From Nitrososphaerota archaeon (lineage in GTDB: Archaea > Thermoproteota > Nitrososphaeria > Nitrososphaerales > UBA183): DNA of 6,257 nt. The translations under genes and the position numbers were made by a program. The stretch lies in contig JAPCJR010000036.1 of NCBI GenBank assembly GCA_027886865.1, positions 1 through 6,257 on the forward strand, in the 5' to 3' direction. Positions 1,389 through 6,165 of this stretch are shown one piece after another (the stretch's first letter is position 1; every line of letters starts with the position of its first letter). The notes beneath the pieces are model-generated. The model was not told where the DNA came from and did not search any database. It saw only the letters and a list, made by a program, of their open reading frames with translations.

Positions 1389-1396
1389 CTTTAAGC
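1389..1396 (+). promoter_or_regulatory. TATA-like box of the four-gene operon
   Basis: CTTTAAGC is centred about 24 bases before the ATG at 1417, with no Shine-Dalgarno sequence in between. This fits leaderless transcription of the first gene. A second TTTAAGC at 1343-1349 could be an alternative upstream box and would give a leader of roughly 45 bases. Confidence 0.45.
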
Positions 1397-1416: not shown

Positions 1417-2730
1417 ATGAATCAAATTTCGCCGCAAGTGGCGACAATCGGCGAAGGAAAGACGCCTGCGGCCGGCGCTCCTCCTTCAGTATGGCTGGGG
1501 TATGCGCCAACGGGTGGCCGCGTCTCGATGCGGCTGGATGAGATGAAGCGCAGGCTGCTCGTCGGAGGACAAAGGTCTGGCGAGCTCGCGGGCCTCATCG
1601 CTCATGCCTGCCGAGAGAGCGACATCAGGATACTTGTACTCGATATGGAAGGAATCGTCTCCCAGCGCGCTTCAGGGTACATGGAACACTATGACTATAC
1701 CTGCTTCCTGCACGACGCATTCAGGATCGAAGAGGAGGAAGCCACCATGCATGGGCAGCTTATCGCGGCGGCTTACACGGCGGCGATGGGCCTGAATTCC
1801 GAAGAAGAGGCGATCACCGCCGCGGCCCTTCACAAACTATCATCCCAGGACAGCACTTCCAGCCCCGCAGTGCTGTTCGATGCGCTAGACTCGGTGGAGG
1901 GGTTCAGGGGCTTCTACGTCGACAAGCTGAAGGGGCGGGTGGGGTCGCTGAAGTTTCTGGAGGCCGCAGAGAATGGCTCGTTCATGTCCCTCCTCCCCAT
2001 CGGCGGCTCCATAATCAGCTTCGGGACGGCGAGATATCCTCAGGCGACCGAGCTGGCATCTGCAATCTTTCTCGCCAAGCTCATCGCGATGCTACCCCAT
2101 GCAAAGGTCGCCCCGGACATCGTCATGGTCACCGGGGCACACCGCATCTTCGGGGCTCTGCCGAGGGTCCAGCACAGGGAAAGGCTGCTCATGGAGATGC
2201 TAGAGTCCCGCATGACCTTCATCCTGACGTCTGACCAGATGCACGCTCTCAGCGACACGGTGAAGGACGCGTTCACGAACAAGGTCCTCTCGAGCGACGC
2301 CTGGAACGACAAGGTCGAGACGCGTTGGAAAGAGCATTCGCACGACCCTATCCTTCCGAACGCCTTCGCCATAGCCGACGGCCACTTCGGGCACCAGAGG
2401 ACCTTCATCGCCAGAACGTTCGAACCGAAGTTCGAGGAGGCAAGGACAGGTCCAGACCCGACAGAAGGCAGGGCTGAGAGGAACGAGGAGCTGACGATGA
2501 TCATCCTCGACGACATCAAGCGCTACGAAGCACCCACGAAGACCTCGATCATCGAGTTCCTGGCCGGCGAGTACGGGACCGAGGCCGCGGAGAACGAGCT
2601 CGACCGACTCTTCGCCGATGGGTGCATCAAGCTCGAGTCCAGGGAACCCGGGGCCGGTGGCGGGCATGCCATGCTAGTGTATACGATCACGGAGAAGGGC
2701 CTTCGAACTCTGGAGGGGCTTCAGAGATGA
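1417..2730 (+). CDS. HerA/VirB4-like pseudo-ATPase with C-terminal winged helix
   Basis: This 437-residue protein follows the plan of a HerA/FtsK/VirB4-type ATPase domain: a lead-in 'VSMRLDEMKRRLLVGG', strand two 'IRILVLDMEG' (70-79), a long helical middle, and 'LASAIFLAKLIAMLP', then 'PDIVMVTGAHRIF' (233-245). The sensor-like 'FILTSDQMHAL' (268-278) keeps its glutamine, Q274. Both catalytic motifs are lost. The P-loop reads GGQRSGEL (50-57), with glutamate 56 where lysine should be and leucine 57 for Ser/Thr. Walker B has T239-G240 instead of Asp-Glu before the conserved Ala-His. It should therefore not hydrolyse ATP. Residues 355-437 form a winged helix ending in 'YTITEKGLRTLEG'. There is no HAS-barrel N-terminal domain, which makes it shorter than HerA. 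It leads the operon and overlaps the next gene by ATGA. A structural or regulatory subunit for the RadA-like partner is likely (inference). Confidence 0.75.
   Translation: MNQISPQVATIGEGKTPAAGAPPSVWLGYAPTGGRVSMRLDEMKRRLLVGGQRSGELAGLIAHACRESDIRILVLDMEGIVSQRASGYMEHYDYTCFLHDAFRIEEEEATMHGQLIAAAYTAAMGLNSEEEAITAAALHKLSSQDSTSSPAVLFDALDSVEGFRGFYVDKLKGRVGSLKFLEAAENGSFMSLLPIGGSIISFGTARYPQATELASAIFLAKLIAMLPHAKVAPDIVMVTGAHRIFGALPRVQHRERLLMEMLESRMTFILTSDQMHALSDTVKDAFTNKVLSSDAWNDKVETRWKEHSHDPILPNAFAIADGHFGHQRTFIARTFEPKFEEARTGPDPTEGRAERNEELTMIILDDIKRYEAPTKTSIIEFLAGEYGTEAAENELDRLFADGCIKLESREPGAGGGHAMLVYTITEKGLRTLEGLQR
2712..2718 (+). promoter_or_regulatory. Shine-Dalgarno site fixing the RadA-like start
   Basis: GGAGGGG lies eight bases before the ATG at 2727, inside the 3' end of the upstream gene. 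It picks 2727 over the upstream in-frame ATG at 2622, whose extra residues read as an out-of-frame shadow of the winged helix. The same heptamer at the same spacing precedes the next gene. Confidence 0.6.
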
Positions 2731-3764
2731 CCACCACCGAGATGGACCCTCTGCCAAGGATCGCGACACACTGCAAGGCCATCGATACTCTCTTCGACGG
2801 CGGGCTTGCCACCGGGACCATCACCCAGATCTATGGTGAGAAGGCCCTCGGGAAGAGCATCATATCGTTCCAGACGGCTTGCGCGACGGTCGCAAGCGGG
2901 TCCAGCGCGATCGTGATCGATACCGAGCAGTCCTATGACAGCTACCTCACGCCCTACTGGAGGTCTTCGTTCGCCAACCGGTTCGGGAAAGAGATACCCA
3001 TAGTCAGAGTAAAGCTGGAGAGGGCACCAAAGACCTTGGACAAGAGGAAGAAGACCGGCGTGACGAGAGGGCAGGTCATCTCTTCCTTCGGGAACACGCT
3101 CGACCAGCTCGGAATAGCCTACTCAGAGTCCCACCTCAAGTCCATCGCCGACATAGTATCGCCTGAGCTTCGCGCAGACATGCCGGAGGTAACAAGCCCC
3201 TCGATCCTCATCCTGCAGGTCCCGGACGCGGAGGAGCTCCTCGCCCTGCATGGTTACAACGCTAGGAAGGAAGTATCAGAGGGCGGGCGCGTGGAGATAA
3301 GGCTGCAGTCGACCCCGGTCTATGAGTCCCTGCTCCACGACCTGATAGTGAAGACGGGCGCAAAGCTGCTCATCTACGACTCCATCTCAGCGCCGATGAA
3401 GGCGAGCTTCCCCAACACCCAGGACCTGCCGGCCCGCTCCTCGACCCTCGCCATGACCCTCGCGCACGCTCAGCGTCTCTGCGCTCAGTTCGGGATAGCC
3501 GTGACAGTGACGAGCCACGTCACCATCGACCCCATCAAGGCGTGGGACAGGAGGCCCTACGGCGGGATAATCCTCGGGCACGAGGCGAAGTTCTGCCTGG
3601 AGATAACGAAGGGCACTGCGAAGCGCAACGCGGATGCTGAGTGCATCAATCCAGAGGACGGGGACCGGGAGAAAGCCAAGGCGTTCTGGGTCGCACGCCA
3701 TCCGGCGATGGAGGAGTACTCGAAGTTCGGCATCTCCATGGTGGACAAGGAGGGGTTCCACTGA
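2727..3764 (+). CDS. RadA/RadB-like recombinase-family ATPase with large insertion
   Basis: This 345-residue protein is a RecA/RadA-superfamily ATPase. It opens with the RadA-like 'IDTLFDGGLATGTITQIYG' (19-37) and an intact Walker A, GEKALGKS (37-44). 'VIDTEQSY' (63-70) carries the presumed catalytic glutamate E67, and Walker B is 'LLIYDSIS' (214-221) with D218. 'ARSSTLAMTLAHAQRL' (236-251) and 'PYGGIILGH' (277-285) match RadA's helix and L2-end motif. The RadA 'TNQ' motif is T262-S263-H264 here. The N-terminal helix-hairpin-helix domain of RadA is absent, as in RadB and aRadC-type paralogues. Between E67 and D218 there are about 150 residues, against about 65 in RadA, so an insertion of some 85 residues lies near 98-160. 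It is basic at its start. It is the only protein of the operon with intact nucleotide-binding motifs and probably its motor or switch. DNA binding is inferred. Confidence 0.85.
   Translation: MTTTEMDPLPRIATHCKAIDTLFDGGLATGTITQIYGEKALGKSIISFQTACATVASGSSAIVIDTEQSYDSYLTPYWRSSFANRFGKEIPIVRVKLERAPKTLDKRKKTGVTRGQVISSFGNTLDQLGIAYSESHLKSIADIVSPELRADMPEVTSPSILILQVPDAEELLALHGYNARKEVSEGGRVEIRLQSTPVYESLLHDLIVKTGAKLLIYDSISAPMKASFPNTQDLPARSSTLAMTLAHAQRLCAQFGIAVTVTSHVTIDPIKAWDRRPYGGIILGHEAKFCLEITKGTAKRNADAECINPEDGDREKAKAFWVARHPAMEEYSKFGISMVDKEGFH
3749..3755 (+). promoter_or_regulatory. Shine-Dalgarno site fixing the membrane-protein start
   Basis: GGAGGGG lies eight bases before the ATG at 3764, identical in sequence and spacing to the site at 2712-2718. 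The stop of the preceding gene and this start overlap as TGATG, so re-initiation by terminating ribosomes is likely. Confidence 0.6.
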
Positions 3765-4846
3765 TGGGCTGGCTGCTGAAGATAGGCGCTCTCCTGGTTG
3801 GGCTCGCGAGCCTGACTTTGGGGTTCTGGCCCATCTGGGTCGCCTGCTTCGGGTACCTTGCGTACTCCCTCTGGTCTGCGACGAAGAGGCGGACGGTCCT
3901 GGTGCGGGACCAGAGGAAGCCCCGGGAGGCGCCCCAGGTGAAGAGGAGCGTCTTCAAGAAGAGGTACATCGCGGCAGGTTTCTCCTTCGTGCTCGCCCTG
4001 GCTGCCCTCGGCGAAGGCGGGACTTACGCCCCCTGGGTCTTCGGTTTCATCGGCGCCGCGATAGTCGCGTCCGGTGTCTTCAACCGCGGGCCGAGCCTCT
4101 CCCAGTTCAGGCCAGTACCAGATTCCATACTCCTCAGGAGCAGGTGGCTCCCGATCTCGTGGGCCTCGGTCATAGAGGTGAAGTTCGGCACCCAGCAGAT
4201 GTCGAGGGCGCTCTCCTCCGTGGGGAACGAGATGGTCATGACGGTCTCTTCCGAGAGGGTGTCGGTCTACCTGCCCCTCCGCGTGCGGGCGTTCTCCGTC
4301 CCATCGGCCGAGGCGAAGGTCGCCGAGAGGCTCGCGCCGATCGCGAGGATGCTGAGCGCCAGAGGCGCGTTCGCGCTGCCGCTTGACTCGAAGGAGGCAG
4401 CCGCCCGAATGGACTGGTCGCTGAGGGCAGTGGACCTTGCCCTCGAGTATGGCATGGACGGGGCCACGGCGCTCACCTCGACGCCCTTCGATGTGCTCGT
4501 GCTCGGCCCTTCGGGGCACATGCTGGAGTCAGCGGCAGCCTATGTCGTCCAGCCGAGCAGGAGGCCGGGATACGTCTTGATCCCTTCGCCGGGCAGGAAG
4601 CTCGAGAGCCAGCCGCTGCTTTGGGAGGCACTGGAGACGCTGAGCGAGAAGCACATGCCCCAGACGCCCGACGCATACACCTCGTTCCTCAGCGGGGTCT
4701 GCGCGACCAAGGGGGAGGGCCTTGGGGAGAGGCTGATTAATGGGGGCCAGAGCGGGCCGGGGACGGTCCTTGTCGGCTCGCTCGGGTCGACCCAAGTCGA
4801 GCTGACGCGGCCCCAGCTCAGGGCGATAGTGAGGGCCTATGGCTGA
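3764..4846 (+). CDS. four-pass membrane protein with large cytoplasmic region
   Basis: This 360-residue protein has two hydrophobic hairpins: segments at about 4-20, 22-38, 68-84 and 89-105. The loop between the hairpins is strongly basic (41-67), so it and both termini should be cytoplasmic, leaving some 255 residues in the cytosol. Residues 119-200 show a strand pattern ('SILLRSRWLPISWASVIEVKFG', spoken of here only by its ends 120-142, then 'NEMVMTVSS' and 'RVSVYLPL') followed by a helix ('SAEAKVAERLAPIARMLSARG'). This resembles bacterial membrane PH (bPH2-type) domains, which also follow paired membrane helices. The resemblance is by eye and tentative. Residues 205-360 are not recognised. 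The start at 3764 has a strong ribosome-binding site and a TGATG junction. An upstream extension to 3641 would overlap the RadA-like gene. In context it is the likely membrane anchor for the two ATPase-fold proteins. Confidence 0.75.
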   Translation: MGWLLKIGALLVGLASLTLGFWPIWVACFGYLAYSLWSATKRRTVLVRDQRKPREAPQVKRSVFKKRYIAAGFSFVLALAALGEGGTYAPWVFGFIGAAIVASGVFNRGPSLSQFRPVPDSILLRSRWLPISWASVIEVKFGTQQMSRALSSVGNEMVMTVSSERVSVYLPLRVRAFSVPSAEAKVAERLAPIARMLSARGAFALPLDSKEAAARMDWSLRAVDLALEYGMDGATALTSTPFDVLVLGPSGHMLESAAAYVVQPSRRPGYVLIPSPGRKLESQPLLWEALETLSEKHMPQTPDAYTSFLSGVCATKGEGLGERLINGGQSGPGTVLVGSLGSTQVELTRPQLRAIVRAYG

Positions 4847-5246
4847 GGCGGAATGGTCCGGATTTGACAGCCTGAAATTCAGCAGGATCGGGCCGGTCTT
4901 GGCAGTCTTGGTCGACATACGCGAGGAAGAGATACTGTCTCTCTGCAGAGAGCTCCTCGACACGGCGTTTCCCGATTCGGCCGGCAAACACGTGATAGCC
5001 GCCATGCTGCGGGCGAGCGGTACCATGAGCCTGCGCGAGATCGCGTCGGGCTGCGACAGAGGAAGGCGCGCAATAATGCCCGACGGTGAGCTGCGGGCAG
5101 CGGTCGAAAGGATGGCGAGGGAGGGGATAATCGTGAACAAAGGGACGCCCGAGAAGCCCCGCTATTCCCTGGACGGAGGCGACAGGCGCGTCCAGATGCT
5201 GCGGAGGATGTATGGTCCGATGAGGTTTGGCGAAGCCGAAATATAG
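4839..5246 (+). CDS. small winged-helix protein, last gene of the operon
   Basis: This 135-residue protein overlaps the membrane-protein gene by eight bases (ATGGCTGA), with a modest GTGAGGG site just before the start. Residues 1-46 form an N-terminal part with a hydrophobic strand and helix ('IGPVLAVLVDIREEEILSLCRELL'; positions 17-40, ends only diagnostic). Residues 48-111 look like a winged helix: 'KHVIAAMLRASG', 'MSLREIASGCDRG', recognition helix 'ELRAAVERMAREGII', and wing 'EKPRYSLDGG'. A basic tail 'RRVQMLRRMYGPMRF' follows. It could be a DNA-binding adaptor for the complex or the operon's own regulator. Being translated with the membrane protein, rather than having its own promoter, leans towards the former. 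No named family is recognised. Confidence 0.65.
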   Translation: MAEAEWSGFDSLKFSRIGPVLAVLVDIREEEILSLCRELLDTAFPDSAGKHVIAAMLRASGTMSLREIASGCDRGRRAIMPDGELRAAVERMAREGIIVNKGTPEKPRYSLDGGDRRVQMLRRMYGPMRFGEAEI

Positions 5247-5264
5247 GATAGGACTACACAATTG

Positions 5265-5591
5265 CTATTGAGTTTTCGTCGTCCCCTTCGAGTCGGAGCC
5301 TTTCTTGATTGCCTCGATTCTTTCATCTACGAAAGCTACCTGACCTTGCAAGAAAGTTCTGTACCCTTCCAACAGCTCCAGCTGCTCGCGATTGGTCTTG
5401 TTGTCAAGAGACGTCAGCGCGTCCGACAGCGACTGACCAGCCTGCTCGAGCGACCGGTCCAACGCGTGTTCGATTTCAGGCGCCCTCTTGGAGAATTCCG
5501 CCTGCAATGACTTGGTCGTGCTATCTATGAACTCCTCCATGCTTTTGATTGTGTCGCTCACGCTCTTGTTTACCTTTTCGGCGGTGCTCAT
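5265..5591 (-). CDS. small helical coiled-coil protein, possibly phasin-like
   Basis: This 108-residue protein is highly charged, rich in Ser, Lys, Glu and Gln, and almost certainly all helical. A first amphipathic helix spans about 4-62 with heptad-like spacing. A short break, 'DNKTNRE', precedes a second helix of about 69-97 ('EQLELLEGYRTFLQGQVAFV' onward), and a disordered lysine-rich tail ends it. There is no cysteine, membrane segment or signal. The helical hairpin form and composition recall phasins that coat polyhydroxyalkanoate granules, but this is only a resemblance; any small coiled-coil scaffold would look alike. I chose the ATG at 5591 over a frame opening at 5654 because a TATA box (5614-5621) sits 26 bases upstream of it and the extra residues would cross that box. 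It converges on the four-gene operon with an 18-base gap and is probably unrelated to it. Confidence 0.65.
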   Translation of the reverse strand: MSTAEKVNKSVSDTIKSMEEFIDSTTKSLQAEFSKRAPEIEHALDRSLEQAGQSLSDALTSLDNKTNREQLELLEGYRTFLQGQVAFVDERIEAIKKGSDSKGTTKTQ

Positions 5592-5613
5592 CGTGATTTG
5601 GCCGCAACGTGCG

Positions 5614-5621
5614 TTATTTAA
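5614..5621 (-). promoter_or_regulatory. TATA box of the helical-protein gene
   Basis: On the minus strand the sequence reads TTAAATAA, centred 26-27 bases before the ATG at 5591. It is the best TATA match in the window and decides the start of that gene. The rest of the 5592-5711 gap holds only A+T-rich sequence with short T-runs and no visible gene. Confidence 0.6.
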
Positions 5622-5711
5622 GGAAAGGAAGATTCTCCTGTCACTCGATGTCAAGAAGATGTCGCGTGGTTACAAAAGAGCATATTTTCGTTTCTAGCTA
5701 CGGTCCTGTTT

Positions 5712-5927
5712 CTATTCGAACTCCGATCGTTGCTTCTCAGTCTGCCTGATGATGTACTGGATTACGAATACGGTCACTTCGCTGTGATGCGGCACCCAGG
5801 TCGTCAGCGCTCTTGTGCCCGTCTTCTTCTTGAAGGTGATGTGCTTGCCGGACCTGACCTCCTCGAATCCGTTCGCCTTCAGGATTTCAGTTACTCTTCG
5901 TCGTGGAAGTGGTCGAAGCCTTGCCAT
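5712..5927 (-). CDS. hicA: HicA-type (YcfA family) mRNA-interferase toxin
   Basis: This 71-residue protein matches the small HicA/YcfA double-stranded-RNA-binding fold from end to end. The opening 'MARLRPLPRRRVTEILKANG' is the usual first helix. 'FEEVRSGKHITFKKK' (21-35) holds the catalytic histidine H29 after the conserved glycine (canonical form G-S-H, here G-K-H). 'TTWVPHHSEVT' (42-52) is the conserved VP-H strand, and the last helix is 'FVIQYIIRQTEK'. HicA toxins bind and cleave mRNA in the ribosome's neighbourhood and are held inactive by HicB. The usual glycine/isoleucine-rich step before the last helix ('kgTLrsI') is altered to 'TVFVIQYI', so activity is likely but not certain. The ATG at 5927 lies inside hicB, giving a 41-base overlap in a different frame and implying coupled translation. 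The base composition is richer in A+T than the operon to the left. Confidence 0.85.
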   Translation of the reverse strand: MARLRPLPRRRVTEILKANGFEEVRSGKHITFKKKTGTRALTTWVPHHSEVTVFVIQYIIRQTEKQRSEFE

Positions 5928-6165
5928 GTAAGACGCCTTCGGGGATACTCACGGGTATGTTCGCCAGCGACAGAGACAGCAAGTCATCGATGGAAGGTTT
6001 TGCTGTGTCGGGATCCCTAAGGTATTCATCTATCAATGCGGCCATATTCTCTTTCGCCTCTTTCTCTGTCCTACCCTGAGTCGCGATATCCAGGATCGGG
6101 CAAGAGGCGACAAACCACTTGTTCTCTCTGGCCATCACGATGGGAAGGGGTATCTGCAAAGCCAT
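5887..6165 (-). CDS. hicB: HicB-type (UPF0150) antitoxin
   Basis: This 92-residue protein carries the HicB partial RNase-H-like fold. The first strands are 'LPIVMARENKWFVASCP' (7-23), then 'LDIATQGRTEKEAKENMAAL' leads into the conserved helix and 'IDEYLRD' (45-51). Family members bind the HicA toxin and block its active site. A C-terminal stretch of about 40 residues follows, of which the last dozen ('GKASTTSTTKSN') is low-complexity. It is encoded by the DNA that also encodes the start of HicA. No ribbon-helix-helix or helix-turn-helix domain is visible, so this shorter form may not repress its own promoter directly. The antitoxin gene comes first, so it is translated ahead of the toxin. The start at 6165 is supported by a TATA box at about -24. 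Confidence 0.85.
   Translation of the reverse strand: MALQIPLPIVMARENKWFVASCPILDIATQGRTEKEAKENMAALIDEYLRDPDTAKPSIDDLLSLSLANIPVSIPEGVLHGKASTTSTTKSN

Follow-up and report, generated by a model that had tools for sequence, protein, structure and literature searches.

Several described systems bear comparison with the archaeal locus reported here. They include the FtsK-HerA superfamily (archaeal HerA, Pfam DUF87), in which HerA shows a DEAH consensus at the end of Walker B, the HerA-NurA pair, RadA/Rad51, and the archaellum motor ArlH-ArlI-ArlJ, which combines a RecA-fold protein with a second ATPase-type protein and a membrane protein. A HerA/VirB4-type protein is also found with membrane partners in Ced/Ted DNA import (excerpts of PMC9905601), and the PolB2 mutasome (PolB2, PPB2 and iRadA) is encoded by an operon that joins a RadA relative to a second enzyme long thought dead (excerpts of PMC11791011). 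The locus lies in a 6,257-nucleotide stretch of contig JAPCJR010000036.1 (assembly GCA_027886865.1, Nitrososphaerota archaeon; hereafter the window), where three adjacent genes, A, B and C, make up a conserved unit to which extras are added. None of the named systems that we tested fits this trio, which we tentatively read as a membrane-anchored DNA-handling complex. The features of the trio in the window are:

1417–2730, + strand: gene A, HerA-type protein of 437 amino acids that lacks Walker motifs and ends in a winged helix (about 2485–2727)
1564–1587, + strand: GGQRSGEL, at the position where A has lost its Walker A motif (alignment, translation)
2122–2151, + strand: VMVTGAHRIF where a DEAH-like end would be expected, in the degenerate Walker B region of A (alignment)
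2727–3764, + strand: gene B, RadA-like ATPase core of 345 amino acids without the N-terminal part of RadA (Pfam Rad51, E 2.9e-18)
2835–2858, + strand: Walker A of B, GEKALGKS, intact in 37/37 B proteins
2919–2927, + strand: DTE in the place of the RecA-type catalytic glutamate of B, DxE in 37/37 B proteins
3009–3341, + strand: stretch with a B-specific insert of about 80 residues (Walker spacing, alignment)
3378–3383, + strand: Walker B aspartate-serine of B (alignment)
3764–4846, + strand: gene C, membrane protein of 360 amino acids with four predicted transmembrane (TM) helices (3773–3862, 3968–4018, 4031–4081) and a soluble part (4082–4843)

Relatives were collected around gene B. A pattern scan of one genome per species (84,980 species) returned four loci with a close B relative (L001 to L004), whose titles read archaeon, Nitrososphaerales archaeon and, twice, Thaumarchaeota archaeon. 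In a sample of 300 genomes of the class to which the L002 genome belongs, 34 encoded a B-type protein, a count that rests on the gap between E-values of 1.5e-19 or better and the next match at 1.5e-8; as many as 283 of the 300 matched B at E 0.001, those beyond the 34 by short stretches. These 34 genomes together with the window, L001 and L003 provided 37 loci, which we sorted by B identity into groups of our own making (18 close, 9 mid and 10 distant). A wider sample of the phylum (398 genomes, at most five candidates being scored per genome) gave seven matches to the B alignment, five of them partial and only two of full length (G002 and G100), and a distant B used as query retrieved G002 and G100 only. 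Both are members of the same class. The trio genomes, several of which are metagenome-assembled, all come from one archaeal class.

The order of the trio was kept across nearly all of these loci while B identity fell to 25%. In 26 of the 37 loci a profile identified A immediately 5' of B (interrupted by a run of N in L065), and a frame of 398–426 residues occupied its place in all ten distant loci. C homologues followed B in all 18 close loci (cut at the contig end in L049), and a gene with predicted membrane helices did so in 8/9 mid loci (the contig ends in L062) and 10/10 distant ones, giving 36/36 loci that reach far enough. The place of C in the distant loci is taken by two genes, the first for a small protein rich in helices and the next for a soluble one (the latter cut by the contig end in two loci). 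Apart from the trio, none of the first 40 neighbour clusters held a fixed place in all three groups. One C gene among the close loci (L004, 4223–5257) has a stop codon inside its membrane part and is either a decayed gene or the product of a sequence error.

Protein A matched nothing useful in Pfam, NCBIfam, PADLOC or PHROGs, and its assignment came from profile comparison. A profile of the 18 close A proteins aligned over the HerA ATPase core with a profile pooled from 24 HerA proteins of the same kind of genomes (hhalign probability 95.5%, E 1.5e-8, 267 columns), compared with 0.1% for the reversed HerA profile and 0.9% for the B family; among 34 unrelated neighbour profiles run against HerA, the best reached E 4e-5 over 21 columns and the next 6.2e-5 over 62. 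The comparison with the B family also disposes of A as a diverged RadA. Mid A profiles align with close A over their full length (98.3% and 97.2%), and by such profile links both the mid and the distant A proteins are connected to HerA only through close A. Where A departs from the FtsK-HerA superfamily is in its motifs and its company: Walker B is degenerate, the Walker A pattern GxxxxGK[ST] is absent from all 35 A sequences (0/35), so a sequencing error in the window does not account for its loss, and a RecA-type ATPase is the constant neighbour. The C-terminal end of A weakly resembles a PadR-like winged helix in 5 of 16 members (best E 0.0016), with PadR matches in the PDB at E 0.011 and weaker.

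HerA-NurA differs from the trio in that no NurA gene adjoins A. NurA was encoded in 11 of 22 genomes and lay near the trio only in G005 (about 6 kb away, beside another DUF87 gene). Seven of the 11 genomes searched (that of L003, at 14191–15324, and G100, G150, G173, G203, G204 and G005) had a second HerA-type gene, with a match to an intact P-loop family, no more than 20 kb from the trio, the match in G003/L003 being below the Pfam cut-off; in G100 this gene is paired with one of 610 residues (L154, 4820–8472). Shared synteny of related genomes may explain this proximity.

Protein B shares with RadA/Rad51 an ATPase core with Walker A, the DTE motif and a PYGG turn, at the place of which RadA has a P-GG turn. 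It differs in lacking the N-terminal part, the Walker A lysine standing at residue 32–43 in 23/23 B proteins and at residue 119 or beyond in eight RadA frames, and in carrying the insert of about 80 residues. The distance from this lysine to the Walker B aspartate is accordingly 168–175 residues in B (23/23) against 89 in the RadA proteins that these genomes also encode (8/8, in a sample that leaves out G002 and G173, whose RadA has a long insert of another kind), and is 80–83 residues in the four of seven RadB proteins where the pattern was found. Since B proteins at 25% identity share the insert spacing, a common origin of the family is supported. A long in-frame insert, probably an intein, interrupts the excepted RadA genes of G173 and G002 (L126 and L127). 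A search of the PDB with the B insert gave a best E of 0.12.

In a tree of 39 rows, with the RadA, RadB and KaiC labels assigned from search scores and lengths, the 23 B proteins formed one group (support 95/93), beside which a single KaiC row stood on a very long branch. Scores agree with a separate position: B reached 70.8 bits against a cut-off of 259 for the RadA model NF003301, 61.3 against 361.15 for TIGR02236, and 66.1 against 172.4 for the RadB model TIGR02237, so that RadA and RadB were both rejected as names for B, on these scores as well as on the absent N-terminal part, the insert and the tree. A separate RadA-type gene was present in 9/9 genomes searched, and B is therefore no replacement for RadA. 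By these sequence comparisons B is a distinct RadA-like family, and its insert singles out a RadA relative which an automatic pipeline would label as a poor RadA.

The PolB2 mutasome resembles the trio in pairing a RadA relative with a supposedly dead enzyme in an operon, and is at the same time its mirror image, as iRadA is catalytically inactive (according to excerpts of PMC11791011) whereas the motifs of B are intact in all 37 loci. Neither a polymerase nor PPB2 was identified in the window. The archaellum motor offers a similar set of RecA-fold, ATPase-type and membrane proteins; B scored only 22.4 bits against the ArlH cut-off of 215, and A is of the HerA type.

Protein C, too, matched nothing useful in Pfam (sub-threshold hits only), NCBIfam, PADLOC or PHROGs. 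Hydropathy places four helices in residues 4–33, 69–85 and 90–106, followed by a soluble part of about 250 residues, and two helix pairs near the N terminus recur in most of the 16 close C proteins. Its best PDB match was 9n2d_B ('Bam G'; E 0.002), over residues 69–159 including membrane helices, the next being at E 1.4. The possibility that C is the N-terminal part of a split HerA/VirB4 protein was rejected, with 0.0–0.3% for every pairing of C and HerA sets. An earlier note on this DNA, made from its letters alone, had described A as an inactive HerA-like ATPase, B as RadA-like and C as a four-pass membrane protein; the first description is right for the close group, where the HerA match is controlled, the second is borne out by the Rad51 match and the third agrees with hydropathy.

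The adjacency of a HerA-type protein and a membrane protein recalls DNA transport, and the trio could be what is left of a type IV secretion-like or Ced/Ted-like apparatus for DNA import or export, reduced and domesticated, with A as a former VirB4/HerA-type pump. Archaea do have domesticated systems of this sort (excerpts of PMC9905601). We consider this origin improbable: every A sequence is that of a dead pump, and none qualifies as an active VirB4/HerA-like ATPase; its partner is RadA-like; C matches no HerA set, N-terminal regions included; the four predicted helices of C compare with six or seven in CedA (same excerpts); and no pilin-like partner is kept in the first 40 neighbour clusters. 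A defence module is less probable still. Archaeal dark-matter islands often encode HerA-like helicases (excerpts of PMC4158269), and downstream of the trio the window has a HicA-like toxin gene, but the anti-phage models of PADLOC gave no match to A, B, C or the downstream gene D at E 0.1, the neighbours of the trio looked housekeeping-like by eye, and a close-relative search of viral contigs returned one pattern match to B and no B relative. Searches of the open-access PMC literature, preprints excluded, listed nothing on the A-B-C trio. The earlier note had seen no fit to HerA-NurA, Ced, the archaellum or defence systems, and each of these indeed fails on a tested feature; the novelty of the trio rests on such failed matches and not on a shown activity.

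Our preferred reading, held at somewhat less than an even chance, is that A, B and C form one complex that handles DNA at the membrane and in which B supplies the ATP hydrolysis that A has lost. We favour it because the three genes stay adjacent over deep divergence, A matches HerA, and the Walker motifs are lost in A and intact in B. The composition of the trio suggests the division of labour, namely a motorless HerA-type platform, a motor of the RecA type and an anchor in the membrane. A would serve as a passive DNA-binding ring or platform, B is predicted to hydrolyse ATP for the complex, and C would tether both to the membrane. Lacking the N-terminal part of RadA, B would form no RadA-type filaments and would instead bind to A or C, the insert perhaps serving as the contact. 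The job of the complex would probably be to grip, move or position DNA at the membrane; winged-helix ends and HerA or RadA ancestry both point to DNA, as is established for those families.

Several results weigh against this reading. The HerA match of close A depends on pooling, since single HerA subgroups gave 37.4%, 0.2% and 1.3%; the mid and distant profiles of A, used by themselves, did not match HerA (0.1–0.6%). For distant A (9/10 used) the alignment to close A is confined to the final 77 columns (81.8–87.9%), and homology of its core is tentative. For C, the data no more than suggest homology between groups: mid C against close C gave 19% (E 0.0012, 212 columns), and the best unrelated profile E 0.0033 over 46 columns. 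L060, which retains B and C, is the sole locus of the 37 without A. Finally, RecA-fold ATPases also act in signalling, and winged helices in transcription.

If the complex exists as proposed, two large ATPase families would share the work of one machine, in which a HerA-type pump, its motor lost in every relative seen, has been retained alongside a RecA-type partner with an intact motor, and the trio would offer a concrete entry to DNA handling at the membrane in these archaea. A bolder version, which we regard as unlikely, is that of a swapped-motor machine: a HerA-type ring without ATP binding, driven at the membrane by a RecA-type ATPase with a docking insert, would then be an ancestral translocase of the class without known counterpart.

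Two genes upstream of the trio, like the B insert, were missed by the earlier note:

528–905, − strand: two-TM gene, with two hydrophobic stretches; linked to the trio in 17/18 close loci
999–1283, + strand: winged helix-turn-helix (wHTH) gene (Pfam HTH_45, E 3.9e-10); homologue in 17/18 close loci

The two-TM gene lies upstream of the trio and always on the strand opposite to A in these 17 loci, the exception being L004, where it is on another contig of the genome. The wHTH gene is opposite to A in 16 close loci and shares its direction only in the window. Within the class sample the two-TM protein occurred in 16/300 genomes, comprising all 15 close-type trio genomes and G265 (at a contig end). 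The close group is probably one lineage, and common descent may explain part of this linkage. Neither gene was found in mid or distant loci at the thresholds used, and the pair is therefore not part of the ancestral unit.

This pair lends some weight to the main rival of our reading, in which an ATP-gated signalling complex at the membrane would control transcription, with C as sensor, B as a KaiC-like switch, A as winged-helix regulator and its dead HerA core as scaffold. The PadR-like end of A and the linkage of the wHTH and two-TM genes in 17/18 close loci would suit such a complex, as would the weak similarity of B to KaiC (E 7.3e-8) and ArlH (E 8e-5). The best-scoring models for B are nevertheless those of RadA, RadB and Rad51 rather than KaiC, and the upstream pair falls outside the ancestral unit, and we hold the signalling complex to be possible but rather doubtful. 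Under the DNA-handling reading, the upstream wHTH and two-TM genes would regulate or assist the complex in close relatives.

Gene D and the two possible ribosome-binding sites before B and C complete the part of the window that the earlier note had covered:

2712–2718, + strand: GGAGGGG before B, 8 bases 5' of its ATG; exact site in 3/18 close loci
3749–3755, + strand: GGAGGGG before C, 8 bases 5' of its ATG; exact site in 5/18 close loci
4839–5246, + strand: gene D, accessory small protein of 135 amino acids, weakly winged-helix-like

The earlier note had taken A to D for a single four-gene operon. This stands for A, B and C, which remain neighbours over deep divergence, and falls for D, which is found immediately after C at just three of the 18 close loci (the window, L003 and L046), each time with an 8-base overlap. 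As D is present in 3/18 trio genomes searched, and a homologue in G001 (48% identical) lies apart from the trio, we consider it accessory. Its winged-helix character, also proposed before, is weak, the Pfam match to PaaX standing at E 0.018, below the cut-off; searches of Pfam, NCBIfam, PADLOC and PHROGs returned weak matches below cut-off only. The G001 homologue (L153, 7814–8215, − strand) converges on a HerA gene (6630–7748, + strand) that is interrupted by a stop codon. In L060 a D-like frame (8168–8560, − strand) lies against the 3' end of the gene in the C position, and the matching profile includes that frame.

The open reading frames of A, B, C and D are all on the + strand, at the positions given earlier, and overlap by 4 bases (A/B), 1 base (B/C) and 8 bases (C/D) as had been claimed. 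The TGATG overlap of B and C was kept in 16/18 close loci. The two GGAGGGG sites at equal spacing are likewise real, and the motif is mildly enriched in the window (5 matches vs 1.80 expected; at least 5 in 7/200 shuffles). The fixed product ratio that had been drawn from them did not survive comparison: by eye, the exact site precedes both B and C in only 2/18 close loci (the window and L001). Because it is so rarely kept, and because the site 5' of C doubles as coding sequence for conserved C-terminal residues of B, the argument is weak. About 25 bases 5' of the A start, CTTTAAG (window 1389–1395) was noted by eye as a candidate archaeal TATA box, which would give a leaderless transcript. 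The promoter scan was of the sigma-70 type only and is not meaningful for this DNA; an Rfam scan of the window gave no match above cut-off.

The remaining genes of the window lie on either side of those described. A 148-residue protein (39–485, + strand) and a helix-rich protein of 129 residues (5265–5654, − strand) matched no Pfam family above cut-off. Further downstream, a small gene (5887–6165, − strand), which by position would be a HicB-type antitoxin and has no supporting match, is upstream of and overlaps a HicA-type toxin gene (5712–5927, − strand; Pfam HicA, E 2.7e-9).

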